Assembly (NCBI GenBank): GCA_934358405.1
Contig: CAKRKL010000044.1
Coordinates: 1 to 14,162 of the forward strand
Reading direction: 5' to 3'
Source: an uncultured Blautia sp.
GTDB taxonomy: Bacteria; Bacillota; Clostridia; Lachnospirales; Lachnospiraceae
DNA: 14,162 nucleotides
How positions within the stretch are numbered: position 1 is the stretch's first letter; each line of letters begins with the position of its first letter. The notes below the pieces were generated by a model. It did no database searches. It was given only the letters and a program-made list of their open reading frames with translations, and was not told where the DNA came from. This document shows, in pieces, positions 2,677 to 11,754 of this stretch. The translations under genes were made by a program, and so were the position numbers.

Positions 2677-3471
2677 TTATTTCTCGTTGGAAAGAAGAAT
2701 CCTGTCATTATCCAGCTTCTTTCCGGCGCCCACCTTAAACTTATCAAGAAGCCCCTCTACAGTAAGACCTTTCTTTTCTTCTTCCTTGATATCCAGAACA
2801 ATATTTCCGGAATCCATCATCAAAATGCGGTTGCCAAGCTCCAGGGCTGACTGCATATTATGAGTGATCATCAGACAGGTCAGATGATGTTCCTGCACGA
2901 TGCGCTTTGTCAGATTCAGAACCTTTTCAGCAGTGCCCGGATCAAGAGCAGCTGTATGCTCATCCAGAAGAAGAAGCTTAGGTGGATTCATGGTAGCCAT
3001 CAGAAGGGTAAGTGCCTGTCTTTGACCTCCGGACAGAAGGCCAACCGGATGATTCATGCGATTCTCCAGTCCAATATCAAGAAGCGCAAGCTGCTCGCGG
3101 AACCGTTCCCGGTCGCTTCTGGAAATACGGGAAAGCCATCCGCCCTTCCCTGCAGCAAGAGCAAGGTTCTCCTCGATGGTCATGCCAGGTGCAGTCCCCC
3201 TCATGGGATCCTGGTAAAGTCGTCCGATGTTCTTGGCTCTGACATGCTGTGGCATAAAGGTAATATCCTGTCCATCCAGTACAACAGAACCAGAGTCCGT
3301 AAAAAAGTCTCCGCAGATGGCATTAAACATAGTAGACTTGCCGGCTCCGTTGGAACCGATGATCGTTGCAAAATCACCCTTTTCAAGGTGAAGGGACAGA
3401 TCCTGAATAGCCACCTTCTCATTAACAGTACCCGGATTAAAGGTTTTGGAAATATGTGAAAGCTTCAGCAT
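2677..3471 (-). CDS. trpZ: Tryptophan ABC importer, ATP-binding protein
   Basis: This cytoplasmic ATPase subunit powers the importer encoded with trpX and trpY. The 264-residue protein has all ABC motifs: Walker A GSNGAGKST (residues 39-47), Q-loop Q87, signature LSGGQRQ (146-152), Walker B LLLLDE (166-171), D-loop TAALD and switch His204 (MITHN). It resembles the COG1101 ATPases that pair with TrpX-type binding proteins. The ATG at 3471 lies 3 bases after the trpY stop, with a GGGAGG ribosome binding site inside the trpY 3' end, indicating translational coupling. Substrate is assigned from operon context and the Trp T-box, not from the ATPase itself. The trpY/trpZ lettering follows usage I recall and may be swapped in other sources. 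Confidence 0.88.
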   Translation of the reverse strand: MLKLSHISKTFNPGTVNEKVAIQDLSLHLEKGDFATIIGSNGAGKSTMFNAICGDFFTDSGSVVLDGQDITFMPQHVRAKNIGRLYQDPMRGTAPGMTIEENLALAAGKGGWLSRISRSDRERFREQLALLDIGLENRMNHPVGLLSGGQRQALTLLMATMNPPKLLLLDEHTAALDPGTAEKVLNLTKRIVQEHHLTCLMITHNMQSALELGNRILMMDSGNIVLDIKEEEKKGLTVEGLLDKFKVGAGKKLDNDRILLSNEK

Positions 3472-3474
3472 GGT

Positions 3475-4401
3475 TCAGATTCCTCCCTTCTTGTGTGTCA
3501 TTCTTCGCTTCAGCTGCGGCCACTGCCGTTTCAGGTATGGACCGGAAATTGCCAGAATGACGATCACAGAGGATACCAGCTTCAGCATAAATGCCGGCAT
3601 ATTTAATCTCAAGGCAACCGTATATACCAGACGGAAAACAAAGGAACCAAGAACCATACCCACAGCTCTTACAAAAATTCCGCCTTTACCAAGAATAGTT
3701 CCTCCGATCAAAAGAGAGGCAAGTGCAATGGTAACCATTCCCTGGCCAATGTTGATATCCACAGATTTCTGTGACTGGGAAAGCAGGCATCCGGACAGGG
3801 CTGTAAAGGAGTTTGCAATACAAAGTCCCACAATTGTTGTAAATACAGGATTGATGGAGGATGATTTCACCATATCCGCATTATTGCCGGTTGCACGGAT
3901 TGCAAGACCAAGCCGTGTTTTTAAAAAAATCACAAGAAATGCCACAACTGCTGCTACTGCAATAAGGGCAACAATAATGTCTGCCCTTCCCTTCAAAGGG
4001 GTATCTGCCAGAGCATCCTTCATCATGGAAAATACGGTGTCTGTACGGTTCATATTAATCAGGGAGGAGCCCCCCATCACTGCAATATTAATAGAATACA
4101 AGCCTGTATTCACAATAATTCCTGCAAGCAGGCTGTCCACGCCCATCTTCGTCTGCAGAAATCCGGTTACAAAGCCGGAGCAGATTCCGGCAAGCATTGC
4201 CGCTATAATAGATAAAAAAGGATGTCCGCTGACTGCCACAGCGGCTCCTACAGCGGCTCCCAGTGTAAAGCAGCCGTCTGTAGAAAGGTCGCAGACATTC
4301 AGCATGGAATAGCTTAAAAATAATGCAAGGACAGTCAGCGAACAGATCAGTCCCAGTTTCAGGGCAGTTTCTCCTAAGGAGAGTGCAGTAGCCAGTGTCA
4401 C
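3475..4401 (-). CDS. trpY: Tryptophan ABC importer, membrane permease
   Basis: This is the membrane-spanning subunit of the importer. The 308-residue protein is highly hydrophobic, with about eight or nine likely membrane segments, for example LGLICSLTVLALFLSY, FLSIIAAMLAGICSGFVTG and DIIVALIAVAAVVAFLVIF. It resembles the branched-chain-amino-acid-type permeases (BPD_transp_2; COG4120 group). Translation appears to start at a GTG at 4401: a strong GGAGGA box lies 8 bases upstream, and no better ATG exists at the N-terminus. The gap to the trpX stop is 15 bases and to trpZ 3 bases, so all three genes form one operon. A long open frame on the opposite strand (3446-4312) is a shadow. Confidence 0.88.
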   Translation of the reverse strand: MTLATALSLGETALKLGLICSLTVLALFLSYSMLNVCDLSTDGCFTLGAAVGAAVAVSGHPFLSIIAAMLAGICSGFVTGFLQTKMGVDSLLAGIIVNTGLYSINIAVMGGSSLINMNRTDTVFSMMKDALADTPLKGRADIIVALIAVAAVVAFLVIFLKTRLGLAIRATGNNADMVKSSSINPVFTTIVGLCIANSFTALSGCLLSQSQKSVDINIGQGMVTIALASLLIGGTILGKGGIFVRAVGMVLGSFVFRLVYTVALRLNMPAFMLKLVSSVIVILAISGPYLKRQWPQLKRRMTHKKGGI

Positions 4402-4416
4402 AATTTTTTCCTCCGG

Positions 4417-5442
4417 TTATTTTTCTTCCAGTTCATCAAAGCTCTCTGCTGTAGTGATCTCATTTACCTGTGTGCAAAGAGGTCCCATAGCTGCTTTGAC
4501 GGTTTCAAAATCAAGGCCAAGTGCCTCGCAGGTTTCTGTATTTACAGTTGCAGTTCCATTATCAAAGGTCTCTACAGGAGTAGATGCCGGATCTGCACCG
4601 TTTAAAAGAATATCCGCAACCATATCGGCTGTTTTGGCTCCAAGGTTTGCATAGTCAACGCCGTAGCCTGCAAAGGCTCCGTTTAATGCAAAGGAATCAG
4701 CGCCTGTGTAGTGTAAGATTCCTGCATCAATGAATTTCTCATAGATAGAAAGCTCTGCTGTCATGATGGTGTTGTCAGTCGGGGTAAACACTGCGTCCAC
4801 GCCATCTGCAACAAGTGCATCTGCTGCAAGCTGTACCTCATCTGTGGTGGTTCCGGTGCGTTCTACATATTCAATTCCGTTTTCATCCATATAAGCTTTC
4901 GCTGCTTCAATAGCTGCTGTAGATGAATCCTGTCCGATATCATATAAAAGTCCGATTTTCTTAGTGTCCGGATTTACAGCTTCAATCAGCTTCATAATGG
5001 AAGCGGTATCCAGATAATCGCTTGTTCCGGTAAGATTTGCTCCTGGCTCCTCTAAGGATTCTACAAGTCCTGCTCCAACCGGATCAGAAACTGCTGAAAA
5101 TACAACAGGAATGTCTGTTCCTTCTGTGCTTGCCTGCATACGCATAGCTACAGGTGTTGCAACGCCTACCATCAGGTCCACACCATCTGCCTGGAAGTCA
5201 GAAATGATCTGCTCCATAACATTTGCATCTGCATTACAATTGTCATAAGAGATTTCGAAATTTACACCCTTCTCTTCTCCGATTTCTTTAAGACGGTTCT
5301 CCAGATTGTCCACGATCTGATTCAGAGATGCATCGTCTACATAGTTGCAGATACCGATCTTATAATCCTCTGCAAAAACAGGTGTTGTCATCATCATAGT
5401 TGCCATTGTTGCTGCTGCGATTGCGATCATTCTTTTTTTCAT
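4417..5442 (-). CDS. trpX: Tryptophan ABC importer, substrate-binding protein (TrpX family)
   Basis: This extracytoplasmic receptor should capture tryptophan and deliver it to TrpY. The 341-residue protein opens with MKKRMIAIAAATMATMMMTT, a basic start and hydrophobic core, ending PVFA before EDYKIGI. That is a signal peptidase I site after Ala24. The mature part looks like the COG2984 periplasmic-binding fold (KIGICNYVDDASLNQIVDN, then VFSAVSDPVGAGLV). There is no lipobox cysteine, which is odd for a Gram-positive binding protein. The ATG at 5442 is chosen because GAGAGGA lies about 8 bases upstream and the signal peptide begins there. The frame stays open further upstream to about 5550, but that part lacks a ribosome site and has no signal-like sequence. 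Specificity for tryptophan follows from the UGG-specifier T-box upstream. Confidence 0.88.
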   Translation of the reverse strand: MKKRMIAIAAATMATMMMTTPVFAEDYKIGICNYVDDASLNQIVDNLENRLKEIGEEKGVNFEISYDNCNADANVMEQIISDFQADGVDLMVGVATPVAMRMQASTEGTDIPVVFSAVSDPVGAGLVESLEEPGANLTGTSDYLDTASIMKLIEAVNPDTKKIGLLYDIGQDSSTAAIEAAKAYMDENGIEYVERTGTTTDEVQLAADALVADGVDAVFTPTDNTIMTAELSIYEKFIDAGILHYTGADSFALNGAFAGYGVDYANLGAKTADMVADILLNGADPASTPVETFDNGTATVNTETCEALGLDFETVKAAMGPLCTQVNEITTAESFDELEEK

Positions 5443-5565
5443 AGTTGTTTTCCTCTCTCTCTTAAAATTGGCTGGGGGATTACTTAGCCGTTCCCCTGCA
5501 TCTTGTCTGCGAGAAAGAATGAGTGACATGATATGCGAAGCAATTTCCAATTACTTCTGCTACGT

Positions 5566-5610
5566 AAAAAACCGTCTCTAGAACAACCTTTCGTTGTTCT
5601 TTGAGACGGT
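5566..5610 (-). terminator. Regulated terminator of the Trp T-box
   Basis: Stem ACCGTCTC (5610-5603) with GAGACGGT (5578-5571), continued by AGAACAAC with GTTGTTCT around a small loop, then six T residues (5571-5566). The CGTCTC of its 5' arm is the same segment that pairs with the T-box core, so terminator and antiterminator exclude each other. The 123 bases between this terminator and the trpX ATG hold only the ribosome binding site and a weak GGGGA/TCCCC repeat. Confidence 0.92.
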
Positions 5611-5876
5611 AATAAAATCTTATTATCGCGGTGCCACTCAAATTGACAAATCGTCCACTTTCTCATGTACAAACATACACTCCTGATTGGTAACGGGTTC
5701 GGTTCCCGTCGGCGCCTACTCTAAGATTAAAATTTCGGGCCGCCCTCGAAAGTCCATTCCACCAGCCGCTTCATACGAAGATCACACCATCCTTCGCTCT
5801 CTGTCAGGTCATCACTTACTCTTATCATGACCAAATGTCACCTCTGGTTTACTACTCTTTCTCATCGGTTTAACTG
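5566..5876 (-). promoter_or_regulatory. T-box riboswitch leader, tRNA-Trp specific, controlling trpXYZ
   Basis: The leader senses uncharged tRNA. Stem I begins near 5870 with GATGAGAAAGAGTAGTAA. The specifier loop is closed below by GAAAG (5861-5857) with CTTTC (5752-5748) and above by CCAG (5847-5844) with CTGG (5765-5762). Its 5' side carries AGTA (5856-5853) and its 3' side GAA followed by TGG (5756-5754), the Trp codon, then A. The apical features AGAGAGCGA and GGTGTGA are present. A small stem ACGG/CCGT follows. The T-box core GAGTGGCACCGCG is at 5639-5627. Its bulge UGGC can pair with GCCA, the 3' end of a tRNA with discriminator G, as expected for tRNA-Trp. The antiterminator can form by pairing GAG and GCG, around the 7-base bulge, with CGTCTC (5608-5603), plus TAATA/TATTA. 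When tRNA-Trp is uncharged, trpXYZ should be switched on. Confidence 0.93.
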
Positions 5877-5882
5877 CTTTAT

Positions 5883-5911
5883 ACTTTAGCACAGCAATGT
5901 GGAAATGTCAA
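5883..5911 (-). promoter_or_regulatory. Promoter of trpXYZ (TTGACA, extended -10)
   Basis: Minus strand: perfect -35 TTGACA (5911-5906), 17-base spacer, -10 TAAAGT (5888-5883) preceded by TGC, giving an extended -10. Transcription would start near 5876, just ahead of T-box stem I. The promoter begins 41 bases after the stop of the UPF0210 gene. Confidence 0.8.
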
Positions 5912-5952
5912 GTGGTAATTTCGCCCATTTCGTTATTTTTCCAACTGGCCAA

Positions 5953-7317
5953 TCAGTTTTTAAAGCTGTGGATCGGTGCCGGGATACGTCCGCCTCTTGC
6001 CACAAAGGCCTCGCAGGAGAAGTTATTTACAGGCATGATCGGTGCATATCCGAGCAGACCTCCAAACTCAACGGTCTCTCCCACACCCTTTCCGATTACC
6101 GGGATAAGACGAACTGCAGTTGTCTTCTGGTTTACCATACCGATTGCCGCCTCATCTGCAATAATACCGGAAATAGTGGAAGCCTTGGTATCTCCTGGAA
6201 TGGCGATCATATCAAGACCAACGGAGCATACACAGGTCATAGCTTCCAGCTTCTCAAGAGTAAGAGCACCCTCTGTCACTGCATCGATCATTCCCTGGTC
6301 CTCACTTACCGGAATAAATGCACCACTTAATCCGCCTACTGCTGTAGATGCCATTACACCGCCTTTTTTTACCTGGTCATTAAGAAGCGCAAGGGCAGCT
6401 GTAGTTCCCGGTGCTCCGGCTCTCTCAAGGCCGATCTCCTCCAGGATCTCAGCTACACTGTCACCGATTGCAGGTGTTGGTGCAAGAGAAAGGTCTACAA
6501 TGCCAAAAGGAACGCCCAGCATCTTGGATGCTTCTCTGGCAACCAGCTGGCCCACACGGGTAACCTTAAAGGCTGTGCGCTTGATCGTCTCGCAAAGAAT
6601 CTCAAAATCCTCTCCTCTGACCTTCTCAAGGGCAGTCTTTACAACGCCAGGTCCGCTGACGCCTACATTAATAATGCTGTCTGCCTCTGTAACACCGTGG
6701 AAAGCACCTGCCATAAACGGGTTGTCATCCGGTGCATTACAAAATACTACCAGCTTGGCACAGCCAAGAGAATCCACCTCTTTGGTAGCCTCTGCTGTCT
6801 CAAGGATAATCTCTCCCATAAGCTTCACAGCATCCATATTGATTCCGGTCTTTGTGGAACCCACATTTACAGAGCTACATACCCGCTCCGTGCACGCAAG
6901 TGCCTGAGGGATTGAGCGAATAAGAAGCTCCTCTGCAGGTGTCATTCCCTTGCTTACAAGAGCTGTATATCCGCCAATAAAGTTTACGCCAACCTGCTTG
7001 GCAGCTTTGTCAAGAGTCTTTGCGATGGTCACGAAATCCTCTGTAGTCTTGCAGGCTGCTCCGCCGATCAGGCCGATAGGAGTTACGGAAATTCGCTTAT
7101 TTACAATGGGAATTCCGTACTGTGCAGAGATTTTCTCTCCGGTTTCCACCAGGTCCTTGGCATAAGTCGTTATTTTGTTATAGATTTTTTCGTTTACTTT
7201 ATCGAGATCACTGTCAATACAATCCAGCAGGCTGATTCCAAGGGTAATGGTACGTACATCCAGATTCTCCTGCTCGATCATTTTATTGGTCTCGTTTACC
7301 TCAAACATGTTGATCAT
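5953..7317 (-). CDS. UPF0210 protein (DUF711, 'PFL family'), function unknown
   Basis: The 454-residue cytoplasmic protein matches the conserved UPF0210/DUF711 family by eye. It has a start like [30 protein letters not shown], then [36 protein letters not shown], and the glycine-rich [11 protein letters not shown]. It ends [37 protein letters not shown]. Length is normal for the family. No signal peptide or membrane segment is visible. The fold is related to pyruvate formate-lyase-like barrels in known structures, but I see no glycyl-radical motif and no activating enzyme nearby. It almost always pairs with a UPF0237 ACT protein, as here (7387-7659), which suggests an amino-acid-sensing role; this is inference. 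The ATG at 7317 has AAAGGA 10 bases upstream; another ATG at 7308 is possible. No clear terminator follows it. Confidence 0.9.
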
Positions 7318-7349
7318 AGTTTCATGTTCCTTTCAAATATAATGATGTT

Positions 7350-7373
7350 GGGGTCAAAAGGTTTTTTGACCCC
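7350..7373 (-). repeat. Perfect inverted repeat between the ACT and UPF0210 genes
   Basis: Ten-base arms GGGGTCAAAA (7350-7359) and TTTTGACCCC (7364-7373) with a 4-base loop lie in the 69-base gap between the two genes. No T-run of terminator length follows on the minus strand (AACATC). It could be an RNA hairpin that sets the ratio of the two proteins or an RNase-processing site. As DNA it could be an operator. Confidence 0.7.
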
Positions 7374-7386
7374 TTTGATACCAGAG

Positions 7387-7659
7387 TCAAATACGATGCA
7401 TTACGTTAAAAATATCCTCATGCTGGCAGTGGATCACTACACCGATTTCATTTCCCAGTGCTTCCAGCTCTTTGGAAAGTACTGTGATTTCTTTTTCAGA
7501 AGCATTGGTATCTGTAACCATCATCATGCTAAAATATCCCTGTACAATTGTCTGGGTAATGTCCAGGATATTAACCTGATTCTGGGCAAGATAGGTACAT
7601 ACCTTTGCAATAATACCAACTCTGTCGTTTCCTACTACTGTAATGATTGTTTTTTTCAT
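7387..7659 (-). CDS. ACT-domain protein, UPF0237 family
   Basis: The 90-residue protein is a single ACT domain, a small fold that usually binds amino acids and works as a dimer. It starts MKKTIITVVGNDRVGIIAKV, with the G-x-D-R-x-G-I-I loop typical of ligand-binding ACT domains. It continues LAQNQVNILDITQTIVQGYFSMMMVTD and ends HCQHEDIFNVMHRI, matching the stand-alone UPF0237 (GcvR-like) group in length and pattern. The ATG at 7659 has a strong AGGAGGA box. It sits just upstream of the UPF0210 gene, the usual pairing, and is likely co-transcribed with it. The ligand and target are unknown. It may regulate UPF0210 by direct contact (inference). Confidence 0.92.
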   Translation of the reverse strand: MKKTIITVVGNDRVGIIAKVCTYLAQNQVNILDITQTIVQGYFSMMMVTDTNASEKEITVLSKELEALGNEIGVVIHCQHEDIFNVMHRI

Positions 7660-9114: not shown

Positions 9115-11754
9115 TTATTTTGCCTCGTACCAGTTATTTCCCTGATGCATATCCACCTCCAGCTCCACAGCCAGATGTGCAGCTCCCTTCATCTCTTCCT
9201 CCAGAATTCTGGAAACCTCAGGAATTTCATCCTTCCATGTTTCGATCAGAAGCTCATCATGTACCTGCAGTACCAGCCTGGACTTTAGATTCTCATCCAG
9301 GAGGCGCTTGTAGACACGGTTCATGGCAATTTTGATAATATCCGCTGCTGTTCCCTGAATAGGAGAATTCATGGCCACACGCTCACCAAAGGAGCGCTGC
9401 ATGAAATTACTGGATTTCAGCTCCGGCACAGGACGTCTTCTGCCAAACATAGTGGAAACATAACCCTTTTCTTTCCCCTGCTCCACCAGCTTATCAAGAA
9501 ATCCTTTAATGCTTGGATATGTTTCAAAATACTTCTGAATATATGCGGCTGCTTCCTTACGGGTAATGCTTAGATCCCGGCTTAGTCCAAAGGAGCTGAT
9601 GCCGTATACAATACCAAAGTTGACTGCCTTGGCATTTCGCCTCTGCAAAGGAGTAACCTGATCAAGAGGTACATGGAACACCTGGGACGCAGTCAGCCTG
9701 TGGATATCCTCTGCCTCCCGGTATGCACAGATCAGCTTCTCATCTCCTGACATATGTGCCAGCACACGAAGCTCAATCTGGGAATAGTCTGCATCCAGAA
9801 AAACAAAGCCTGATTCCGGCACAAAAACCTTACGGATCAGTCTTCCCATCTCCATTCGGACCGGAATATTCTGAAGGTTAGGTTCTGTACTGCTGATTCT
9901 TCCTGTTGCAGTGATTGTCTGATTAAAGGTGGAATGAATTCTTCCATCTGCTTCGATCACAGCGCCAAGACCATCTGCATAGGTAGATTTCAGCTTGGCA
10001 AGCTGTCTGTACTCAAGAATATCATTTACAATGGGATATTCCAAAGCCAGCTTCTCCAAAATGTCAGCTGATGTGGAATAACCTGTTTTGGTCTTCCTGC
10101 CGCCCTGGATTCCCATTTTTTCAAAAAGGATCACACCCAGCTGTTTCGGCGAATTAATATTAAATTCTTCTCCTGCCTGCTGCCAGATCAGCTTCTCCAG
10201 CTCCTGAATACGAACAGTCAGCTTATCCCCATAGCTTTTCAGCTCTTCACCTCTGACTTCAATCCCCCATTTTTCCATGGAATCCAGGGTAAATACAAGA
10301 GGAAGCTCAATTTCTGTATAAACCTTCCACATGCCGGTCTCGTTTAACTGCTCCTGCAAAGGCACTCTGACTAAAAGCGCCGTATAAGCCATATAGCATG
10401 CCAGCTGTTCCAGCTCTATAAGCTCCTGCTCCCAGGCCTTTTGCAAAGATATTTTGCCAAGAAGCTCTTCTTTTGACGGAATTTTACTGCCGCTTAGATA
10501 TTCTTCTGCAAGCTCATTGTATGTGTAGGTGTTTTTGAGAGGATCCAAAAGATACGCTGCAATGCCGCAGTCAAATACTCTGGCATCCGGCTGCAGCTGT
10601 ACGTGCTTCAGCATAGCCTTTACATCCATAGCGCAAAGCACAGTGCTCTTTCCCAGGCTCTTTAGCTTATCACTAAGATATCCCGGTGTAATCATTCCCT
10701 GTACCGGAATATAGTAAATTTCTTTATCATTTAAGGCAAGGCCAAGGCCGTATGTGCCTTCCTTGTCACCAAGAAGCTCAACTCCGACAGCTTCGGTCTT
10801 TCCGGCTTTTTCAAAAAGTGCCTCACTGCCCCCAAAATCGCTGCAGGTAAAGAATTCCTGCTCCACCGGATTCTCATTTACCTGTGCCGGATCAAAACGG
10901 TTAAGAAAGCTTTTAAGCCCCAATCTTATGCAAAGATCCCAGGCCTCCTTTGTATAAAAATCCGTCACTTTTGCATTCTCGAGGGAAAATTCTACGGGAC
11001 TGTCTGTACAGATCAAAAACAGCTCCTTGCCAAGCTGTGCCTCTTTATAATTTCCCAGCAGGGATTCTCTCACCCGCTTCTGGGAAATCTCCTCTGCATG
11101 GGCATAGGCATTCTCCAAAGTACCATATTCTCTAATCAGGCAGATTGCTGTTCTTTCACCCACACCGCAAATTCCCGGAATATTGGAAGCAGGGTCTCCC
11201 GTAAGAGCCTTTAAATCGACAAGCCGGGACGGTGCAATCTGATAATGCTCCATCACATCTTCTTCGCGAAAATTCTCTATAACAGTCTGCCCCTTGGACG
11301 TATTAAGCAGGCGGATCAGAATGTTCTCTGAGGCCAGCTGCAGCAGATCCCGGTTACCGGAAAGAATCGTTACATCCATTTCCTTCGCTTTACTTCTCGT
11401 TGCCAGTGTGCCAAGAATATCACCTGACTCATAGCCGGAATAAGAAACACAGGCTATGCCCATTGCAGCCAGCAATTCCTGAAGAATGGACATCTGTTCC
11501 TTTAATCCTTCCGGCACAGGGCTGCAGTTTCTCCTGTACTCCGGATACCTTTGCCGACGAAATGCAGGTTCACCGCTGTTAAAAGCCACTGCCAGATATT
11601 CCGGTTTCTCTTCCTCCAATACTCTAAACAGAATATTCATAAAACCATAGACAGCTCCCGTGTGCAGTCCCTTTGGACCGGTCATATCAGGCAGCCCGTA
11701 AAATGCTCTGTTTAAAATACTGTAACCATCTATTAATAAAACTTTTTTACACAT
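9115..11754 (-). CDS. polA: DNA polymerase I with apparently inactive 5'-nuclease and proofreading domains
   Basis: Pol I fills gaps during replication and repair and normally also removes RNA primers. The 879-residue protein has normal length and domain order: 5'-nuclease (1-290), exonuclease-like (about 310-470), polymerase (about 480-879). The polymerase is intact: TGRISSTEPNLQNIPVR, motif A DYSQIELR (Asp656), motif B RRNAKAVNFGIVYG (705-718), motif C QVHDE (830-834). The exonuclease-like domain lacks the usual carboxylates, as in many Firmicutes. The 5'-nuclease domain is unusual. By eye alignment with E. coli, Asp9, Glu109, Asp112, Asp136 and Asp187 are kept. D63 is Asn59, D115 is Gly111, D138 is Asn134 and D188 is Ser190. 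The basic arch has R81 replaced by Cys77. The ATG at 11754 has AGGAGG 6 bases upstream. No frameshift is seen. Confidence 0.97.
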   Translation of the reverse strand: MCKKVLLIDGYSILNRAFYGLPDMTGPKGLHTGAVYGFMNILFRVLEEEKPEYLAVAFNSGEPAFRRQRYPEYRRNCSPVPEGLKEQMSILQELLAAMGIACVSYSGYESGDILGTLATRSKAKEMDVTILSGNRDLLQLASENILIRLLNTSKGQTVIENFREEDVMEHYQIAPSRLVDLKALTGDPASNIPGICGVGERTAICLIREYGTLENAYAHAEEISQKRVRESLLGNYKEAQLGKELFLICTDSPVEFSLENAKVTDFYTKEAWDLCIRLGLKSFLNRFDPAQVNENPVEQEFFTCSDFGGSEALFEKAGKTEAVGVELLGDKEGTYGLGLALNDKEIYYIPVQGMITPGYLSDKLKSLGKSTVLCAMDVKAMLKHVQLQPDARVFDCGIAAYLLDPLKNTYTYNELAEEYLSGSKIPSKEELLGKISLQKAWEQELIELEQLACYMAYTALLVRVPLQEQLNETGMWKVYTEIELPLVFTLDSMEKWGIEVRGEELKSYGDKLTVRIQELEKLIWQQAGEEFNINSPKQLGVILFEKMGIQGGRKTKTGYSTSADILEKLALEYPIVNDILEYRQLAKLKSTYADGLGAVIEADGRIHSTFNQTITATGRISSTEPNLQNIPVRMEMGRLIRKVFVPESGFVFLDADYSQIELRVLAHMSGDEKLICAYREAEDIHRLTASQVFHVPLDQVTPLQRRNAKAVNFGIVYGISSFGLSRDLSITRKEAAAYIQKYFETYPSIKGFLDKLVEQGKEKGYVSTMFGRRRPVPELKSSNFMQRSFGERVAMNSPIQGTAADIIKIAMNRVYKRLLDENLKSRLVLQVHDELLIETWKDEIPEVSRILEEEMKGAAHLAVELEVDMHQGNNWYEAK

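Follow-up and report, generated by a model that had tools for sequence, protein, structure and literature searches.

A DNA polymerase I with a substituted 5'-nuclease active site in an uncultured Blautia sp. and its probable handover of flap cleavage to a stand-alone flap endonuclease

The 5'-nuclease of DNA polymerase I (Pol I) is usually counted among its most needed activities. The polA gene of an uncultured Blautia sp., located in the 14,162-nucleotide stretch of DNA analyzed here (contig CAKRKL010000044.1; hereafter, the window), raises the question of how a cell manages when this flap endonuclease (FEN) domain has lost metal ligands while the rest of the enzyme is retained. An initial annotation made from the letters alone had proposed that the domain lacks four of nine metal-binding carboxylates and is a dead nuclease that keeps its fold. 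The features of the gene are listed in Table 1.

Table 1. Features of the window polA gene and the substituted positions of its 5'-nuclease domain
Feature	Position in the window	Strand	Basis
polA, DNA polymerase I, 879 aa, full length	9115..11754	-	ORF; Pfam PF02739, PF01367, PF00476 above cut-off
5'-nuclease (FEN) domain, residues 1-270, substituted active site	10945..11754	-	PF02739 164.7 bits; model fold kept
3'-5' exonuclease-like domain, residues 290-480, without catalytic acids, as in relatives	10315..10887	-	alignment to E. coli
Polymerase domain, residues 490-879, catalytic residues intact	9118..10287	-	alignment to E. coli
AAC, Asn59 = E. coli D63 (Cat1)	11578..11580	-	codon read, alignment
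YKxxR motif broken: residues 74-77 R-R-N-C = E. coli K78, R81 positions	11524..11535	-	codons, alignment
TGC, Cys77 = E. coli R81	11524..11526	-	codon read, alignment
GGT, Gly111 = E. coli D115 (Cat1)	11422..11424	-	codon read, alignment
AAC, Asn134 = E. coli D138 (Cat1)	11353..11355	-	codon read, alignment
TCC, Ser190 = E. coli D188 (Cat2)	11185..11187	-	codon read, alignment

By Pfam and the predicted model, the window protein has the FEN, 3'-5' exonuclease-like, and polymerase architecture of PolA1. It shares length, domain order, and an intact polymerase site with canonical Pol I but differs from it in that the FEN active site appears disabled. The polymerase domain was identical to E. coli at 10 of 10 checked positions of the alignment and was 93-95% identical to those of P0003, P0012, P0106, and G001; judging from these residues, the polymerase should still function. 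In the exonuclease-like domain, E. coli D355, E357, D424, Y497, and D501 aligned with Glu, Leu, a gap, Leu, and Met, respectively, and the domain scored 19.9 bits, under the Pfam cut-off of 27 bits. The alignment indicated a dead 3'-5' site both in the window PolA and in the relatives compared, as is reported for many Firmicutes PolA1 in a survey of >3000 species that describes loss of this site as widespread (PMC12926913). We used this dead domain as the yardstick for a non-functional domain in the rate comparisons below. The PF02739 score of the window PolA was 164.7 bits, compared with 183-215 bits for the unbroken and unmasked ordinary family PolAs among the matches listed. Elsewhere in the window (2677-7659, minus strand), Pfam identified an operon-like series of genes for an ABC transporter ATPase, a permease, and a substrate-binding protein, followed by DUF711 and ACT-domain proteins.

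Reading the codons on the DNA and aligning the protein with E. coli MG1655 PolA confirmed each of the substitutions first reported for this gene (D63N, D115G, D138N, D188S, and R81C) and added K78R, the YKxxR motif thus reading YRRNC. Four of nine carboxylates are accordingly missing from a full-length Pol I of 879 aa with an intact polymerase site, as the annotation had stated, and the other five (D13, E113, D116, D140, and D185 in E. coli numbering) are retained. The other codons read in the window were D9 GAT, R74 AGG, E109 GAG, D112 GAT, D136 GAT, and D187 GAC. In the alignment with related PolAs that the annotation had proposed as a check, the ligand losses stood apart, all 13 checked residues being kept in 140 of 145 aligned proteins. 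The five exceptions were the window PolA, P0002, P0022 (D138N only), P0105 (D115N only), and L007, which ends at a contig end and is intact where present. Of 49 near-invariant columns in the nuclease domain, the window PolA departed from 10, but it matched all 120 such columns of the polymerase domain and all four of the 3'-5' domain; this concentration of changes in the nuclease domain is more than chance.

The window is a single stretch, which leaves room in principle for a sequencing or assembly error. The nuclease domain of P0002, however, is 95.2% identical to that of the window (13 of 270 residues differ) and carries the same Asn, Cys, Asn, and Ser, with Ser instead of Gly at residue 111 (E. 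coli D115). This sharing of substitutions, together with the restriction of near-invariant column changes to the nuclease domain, leaves error with a practically negligible probability. The further possibility, raised at the outset, that the metal ligands are supplied by shifted residues found no backing, as no newly gained acids were seen by eye beside the lost ligands in the aligned motif stretches. Glu62, for example, is also present in P0003 and L001, both of which have intact ligands.

We take D13, D63, E113, D115, and D138 of E. coli Pol I to be Cat1, and D140, D185, and D188 to be Cat2, on the basis of the family alignment; two of five Cat1 acids and two of three Cat2 acids are kept in the window PolA. 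In FENs, Cat1 comprises five acids (ExoIX D9, D50, E102, D104, and D127; T5 D26, D68, E128, D130, and D153), Cat2 comprises three (T5 D155, D201, and D204), and a YKxxR motif has been described (PMC3783174). A single Asp of ExoIX directly contacts Mg (PMC3783174), and the window PolA is without its equivalent. Because three of five Cat1 ligands, one Cat2 ligand, and the Lys and Arg of YKxxR are replaced, no flap cutting is expected. The AlphaFold model of the window PolA had a mean pLDDT of 87.1, with 24 of 27 ten-residue blocks of the FEN domain above 80, and the FEN fold was kept. Its best matches among solved structures were full-length M. smegmatis Pol1 (6vde) and Taq polymerase (1taq), with approximately 900 columns aligned; the overall rmsd of 24-25 Å was large, indicating that the domain arrangement of the model differs from those of the two structures. 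A catalytically dead 5'-nuclease with a kept fold is the best reading of these residues and of the model, and the original proposal to this effect is supported by the Cat1 and YKxxR losses, the predicted FEN fold, and domain deletions in relatives (see below).

A nuclease that is weakened yet active, by way of the remaining ligands or a changed metal, is in our view decidedly improbable. The equivalents of D13, E113, D116, D140, and D185 are kept, Asn and Ser could hold a water-bridged metal, and E. coli ExoIX, likewise a FEN fold that has lost metal ligands, can cut a double-flap substrate although it has only one metal site (PMC3783174). However, in ExoIX it is Cat2 that has been lost, with Cat1 and YKxxR retained (PMC3783174), whereas the losses in the window are roughly the reverse, falling mostly on Cat1, including the Asp equivalent to the Mg contact of ExoIX, and breaking YKxxR; moreover, the window FEN is a domain of a polymerase, unlike ExoIX. 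We looked for mutant data in PMC3021548 and found none.

To place the window PolA among its relatives, we defined a Blautia-related clade as the listed database proteins with an exonuclease-like domain at least 60% identical to that of the window, which gave 122 proteins among the matches listed. Sampling was uneven, with the best 120 matches per protein search, and many of the 102 of these 122 proteins that retained all ligands and the arginine are near copies. Changed residues were found in nine of the 122, including the window PolA and P0002. Three of the nine had single changes, namely P0022 (D138N), P0105 (D115N), and P0244 (R81G only, affecting the arginine and no ligand). P0245 had E113R, D115C, D140N, and R81K, and P0246 had D115G, D140T, D188S, and R81P; in P0247 and P0248, several changed residues were accompanied by the absence of the H3TH part. 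Another ten of the 122 (P0249-P0258, 557 aa) start inside the exonuclease-like domain and have no nuclease domain, which may reflect whole-domain deletion or gene calls after a frameshift, and the remaining listed protein, P0243, is truncated. All 16 listed proteins outside the clade were intact. The lineages of the clade thus stand at different stages: some evolve fast with intact ligands, others have single or many losses, and in others the H3TH part or, possibly, the entire domain has been deleted. The nearest genome compared, and the only one from the clade, was G001 (record L001), whose PolA is 77% identical to that of the window overall, with 93% identity in the polymerase domain and 62% in the nuclease domain. 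Some cluster representatives (P0004, P0015, P0016, P0048, P0049, and similar) combined clade-type nuclease and exonuclease-like domains with a polymerase domain only ~79% identical to that of the window; these are probably mixed metagenome assemblies.

We then compared evolutionary rates among domains. The mainstream group was not monophyletic in the branch tree, and tip-to-tip distances were therefore used for its comparison with the clade, in place of the branch totals and of two chi-square values that depended on them. The ratio of nuclease to exonuclease-like distance was 0.22-0.33 in eight of eight mainstream pairs, as opposed to 0.68-1.49 in eight of nine clade pairs, not all pairs being independent; the ninth clade pair (P0053-P0022) had almost no changes and a ratio of 0.36. 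The ratio of nuclease to polymerase distance was 0.74-1.83 in mainstream pairs and 1.75-5.69 in clade pairs (the same pairs without P0053-P0022). A rank test gave p 0.008 with five and six hand-chosen pairs, some of which share lineages. When representatives with an odd polymerase domain were left out, proteins 88-91% identical to L029 in the polymerase domain had nuclease domains 81-85% identical to it in P0107-P0121 (mainstream) and 55-70% identical in the clade. Synonymous sites were saturated in the pairwise dN/dS analysis and only dN was informative: dN between the window and G001 was 0.266 in the nuclease domain and 0.046 in the polymerase domain, and the corresponding values between L029 and L030 were 0.088 and 0.048. 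In the clade, the nuclease domain has changed at approximately the rate of the dead 3'-5' domain.

Within this accelerated clade, the branch leading to the window and P0002 had lengths of 0.373 in the nuclease, 0.191 in the exonuclease-like, and 0.042 in the polymerase domain. Between the window and P0002, the nuclease/polymerase and nuclease/exonuclease-like ratios were 1.75 and 0.78, respectively, which is near normal, although few changes are involved; the lower ratio reflects either renewed constraint or small numbers. A near-normal rate after a burst is not predicted by free decay and counts against the reading, developed below, in which the domain is simply drifting. It would suit a repurposed domain, one in which catalysis was lost and the fold persists as a module that binds flaps or the clamp without cutting and steers the polymerase. 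The well-predicted FEN fold, the open frame, and the retention of D9, R16, and four further ligands would fit such a role as well. We nevertheless regard repurposing as rather unlikely: other members of the clade are missing the H3TH part or perhaps the entire domain, the 13 differences in 270 residues between the window and P0002 are too few to show constraint, and the frame must stay open in any case because the polymerase lies downstream.

If the nuclease is dead, the cell would need a separate flap nuclease or RNase H to remove Okazaki primers, as the annotation had noted. A candidate for the separate nuclease it predicted is present in G001, which encodes, in addition to its PolA, a 351-aa stand-alone FEN with all ligands, adjoining nrdD (Pfam NRDD) and a small radical-SAM gene that is nrdG-like by eye. 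The nrdD on this contig is 89% identical to those of G008 and G049 of the same genus and is the sole nrdD match in G001, and the FEN contig thus probably belongs to G001. Database relatives of this FEN had 80-96% identity, and one (P0137) is named uncultured Blautia sp. The PolA of G001 itself keeps intact ligands. Among the 64 genomes of the genus, 60 had any PF02739 match and only G001 had a stand-alone FEN, none being found in the other 63 by PF02739 (four of the 64 without any match). In G008 and G049, PolA was the only PF02739 match, and no FEN was found in the short stretches beside their nrdG. From G001, we infer that the window's own genome may likewise carry a stand-alone FEN. In a FEN tree constructed without YpcP, the G001 protein grouped apart from FENs of 285-308 aa that are present in some family genomes. 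The anaerobic ribonucleotide reductase of G001 (L078:3468-6346) is of a type matched by seven genomes of the genus at 81-89% over the full length or, in G063, in pieces at 60-73%; most others matched at ~30%.

To examine the relationship between stand-alone FENs and PolA nucleases more widely, we searched draws of 397 genomes from the family and 392 from the order; the draws overlap, and some genomes are incomplete. In the family draw, 31 of 397 genomes matched the G001 FEN at E 1e-30 or better, comprising 11 stand-alone FENs and 20 PolAs of another type (that of G141 split into two frames). The PolA FEN was disabled or deleted in five of the 11 carriers (G198, G237, G273, G377, and G386) and had intact ligands in six, including G001. 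The order draw gave 25 matches, namely four carriers seen before, two other-type PolAs, and 19 new carriers. Of these 19 carriers, 17 have a disabled or deleted PolA FEN, G598 has an intact one, and that of G751 is interrupted by the contig end. Over both draws and 30 carriers, the PolA FEN was thus disabled or deleted in 22 of 29 testable genomes, had intact ligands in seven, and was cut by a contig end in one. The stand-alone FEN kept all nine ligands in all 30 carriers. Four of its matches (G273, G616, G519, and G761) had one stop codon inside the aligned stretch, and their open frames still span residues 3 to at least 339 of the 351-residue query.

PolAs of genomes without this FEN were intact wherever they were checked: in 30 of 30 low-scoring PolAs by residue check (G195 and G461, of similar score, lying outside these 30), and in 10 of 10 testable PolAs of the order draw, the eleventh genome having no PolA match. 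The same held in the genus besides G001 for all 41 genomes with nine readable ligands, and for three more where readable. Ligands were also intact in 19 of 19 other-type PolAs examined and in four of four PolAs of carriers of shorter, 285-302 aa stand-alone FENs. In the order draw, PolA was examined in carriers and 11 others. PF02739 was run against every genome of the family draw (388 of 397 matched, weak or multiple matches being followed up), and its five decayed PolAs were therefore not found only by looking at carriers. A Fisher test that ignored kinship gave 5e-8, with 16 carriers of any stand-alone FEN, including G117, among 397 genomes and with PolA integrity taken mostly from HMM scores, residues having been checked in the 30 low scorers only. 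In a polymerase-domain tree (FastTree, without P0004 and both pieces of G479), the 22 disabled or deleted PolA FENs corresponded to at least six separate losses outside the window's clade, with further ones inside it, with no regain allowed and with a weakly supported backbone in the related tree. Carrying a stand-alone FEN does not force PolA decay, as the seven carriers with intact PolA ligands, including G001, demonstrate. Two candidates for decay were rejected: the low PF02739 score of G333 goes with masked letters, and the frame-broken polA of G163 has intact ligands where readable. The latter gene (L150 and L151; C103 of G163) lies in three frames, through error or as a pseudogene. In G117 (L169, C170), we found a 308-aa stand-alone FEN with all ligands and no PolA at E 1e-30; either the assembly is incomplete or the genome has lost Pol I.

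The same screen bears on whether primers could be removed in this lineage by RNase H and other exonucleases without any FEN, which we consider very improbable. PF02739 was matched in 388 of 397 family genomes, and the nine unmatched genomes, two with PolA only as contig fragments and seven without a PolA match, look as incomplete assemblies would. In B. subtilis, moreover, losing both FEN activities is lethal, at least one of the Pol I FEN and the discrete FEN being needed (PMC10191290).

We consider it likely that the window Pol I has a dead nuclease and a kept polymerase, and that flap cleavage has moved to a separate FEN, leaving the PolA nuclease dispensable and drifting. The window PolA is most readily interpreted as a single stage in a recurrent process, the transfer of flap cleavage from Pol I to a stand-alone FEN. 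In the sequence of events we propose, a stand-alone FEN would be gained first. This FEN, of ~350 aa and of the kind found beside nrdD in G001, would remove Okazaki primers and flaps with the help of RNase H, and the polymerase of Pol I would keep its gap-filling and strand-displacement role. Relieved of nuclease duty, the PolA FEN domain would then drift, with lineages now at different stages.

Such a handover agrees with the suggestion of Lowder and Simmons (2023) from Bacillus. There, the discrete FEN (YpcP/FenA) is more active than the Pol I FEN on Okazaki-like substrates and is regarded as the enzyme that takes on primer removal; the authors suggested that an active discrete FEN makes the Pol I FEN unnecessary (PMC10191290). 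The B. subtilis Pol I FEN is described as feeble, or weakly active (PMC10191290), whereas in the window the ligands are gone. In the survey of >3000 species, a solo FEN was almost always present when Pol I was missing (PMC12926913). Loss of the PolA FEN in carriers of a stand-alone FEN, as proposed for the window, is seen in the G273 group and G377; their FEN domain is largely deleted or unrecognizable, whereas that of the window is full length. We found no mention of PolAs with a disabled FEN in the passages of PMC12926913 examined, and no paper on PolA FEN decay in our searches of open-licence PMC papers.

The nuclease of Pol I thus appears to have been lost in several gut-bacterial lineages. 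Relatives preserve many stages of this process, and wherever the genome behind a loss could be examined, a separate intact FEN was present. These losses offer natural genetic support for the removal of Okazaki primers by discrete FENs in many bacteria, and ready-made lineage pairs for testing when the Pol I nuclease becomes dispensable. A bolder version, in which FEN gain drives repeated stepwise dismantling across the order and the dead domain of the window has also been re-tuned as a non-cutting flap-binding module, is unlikely to hold as a whole; if true, such Pol Is would work like eukaryotic polymerase delta paired with FEN1.

The other-type PolAs, here called type-2 (L090-L108; 20 of 397 family genomes), have a FEN domain 39-45% identical to the G001 FEN, compared with ~25% for ordinary PolA FENs. 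This domain grouped with stand-alone FENs in the FEN tree, and the type-2 polymerase domains were scattered among ordinary ones with weak support. Replacement of the FEN domain, or re-fusion of a FEN, is a possible origin of type-2 PolAs.
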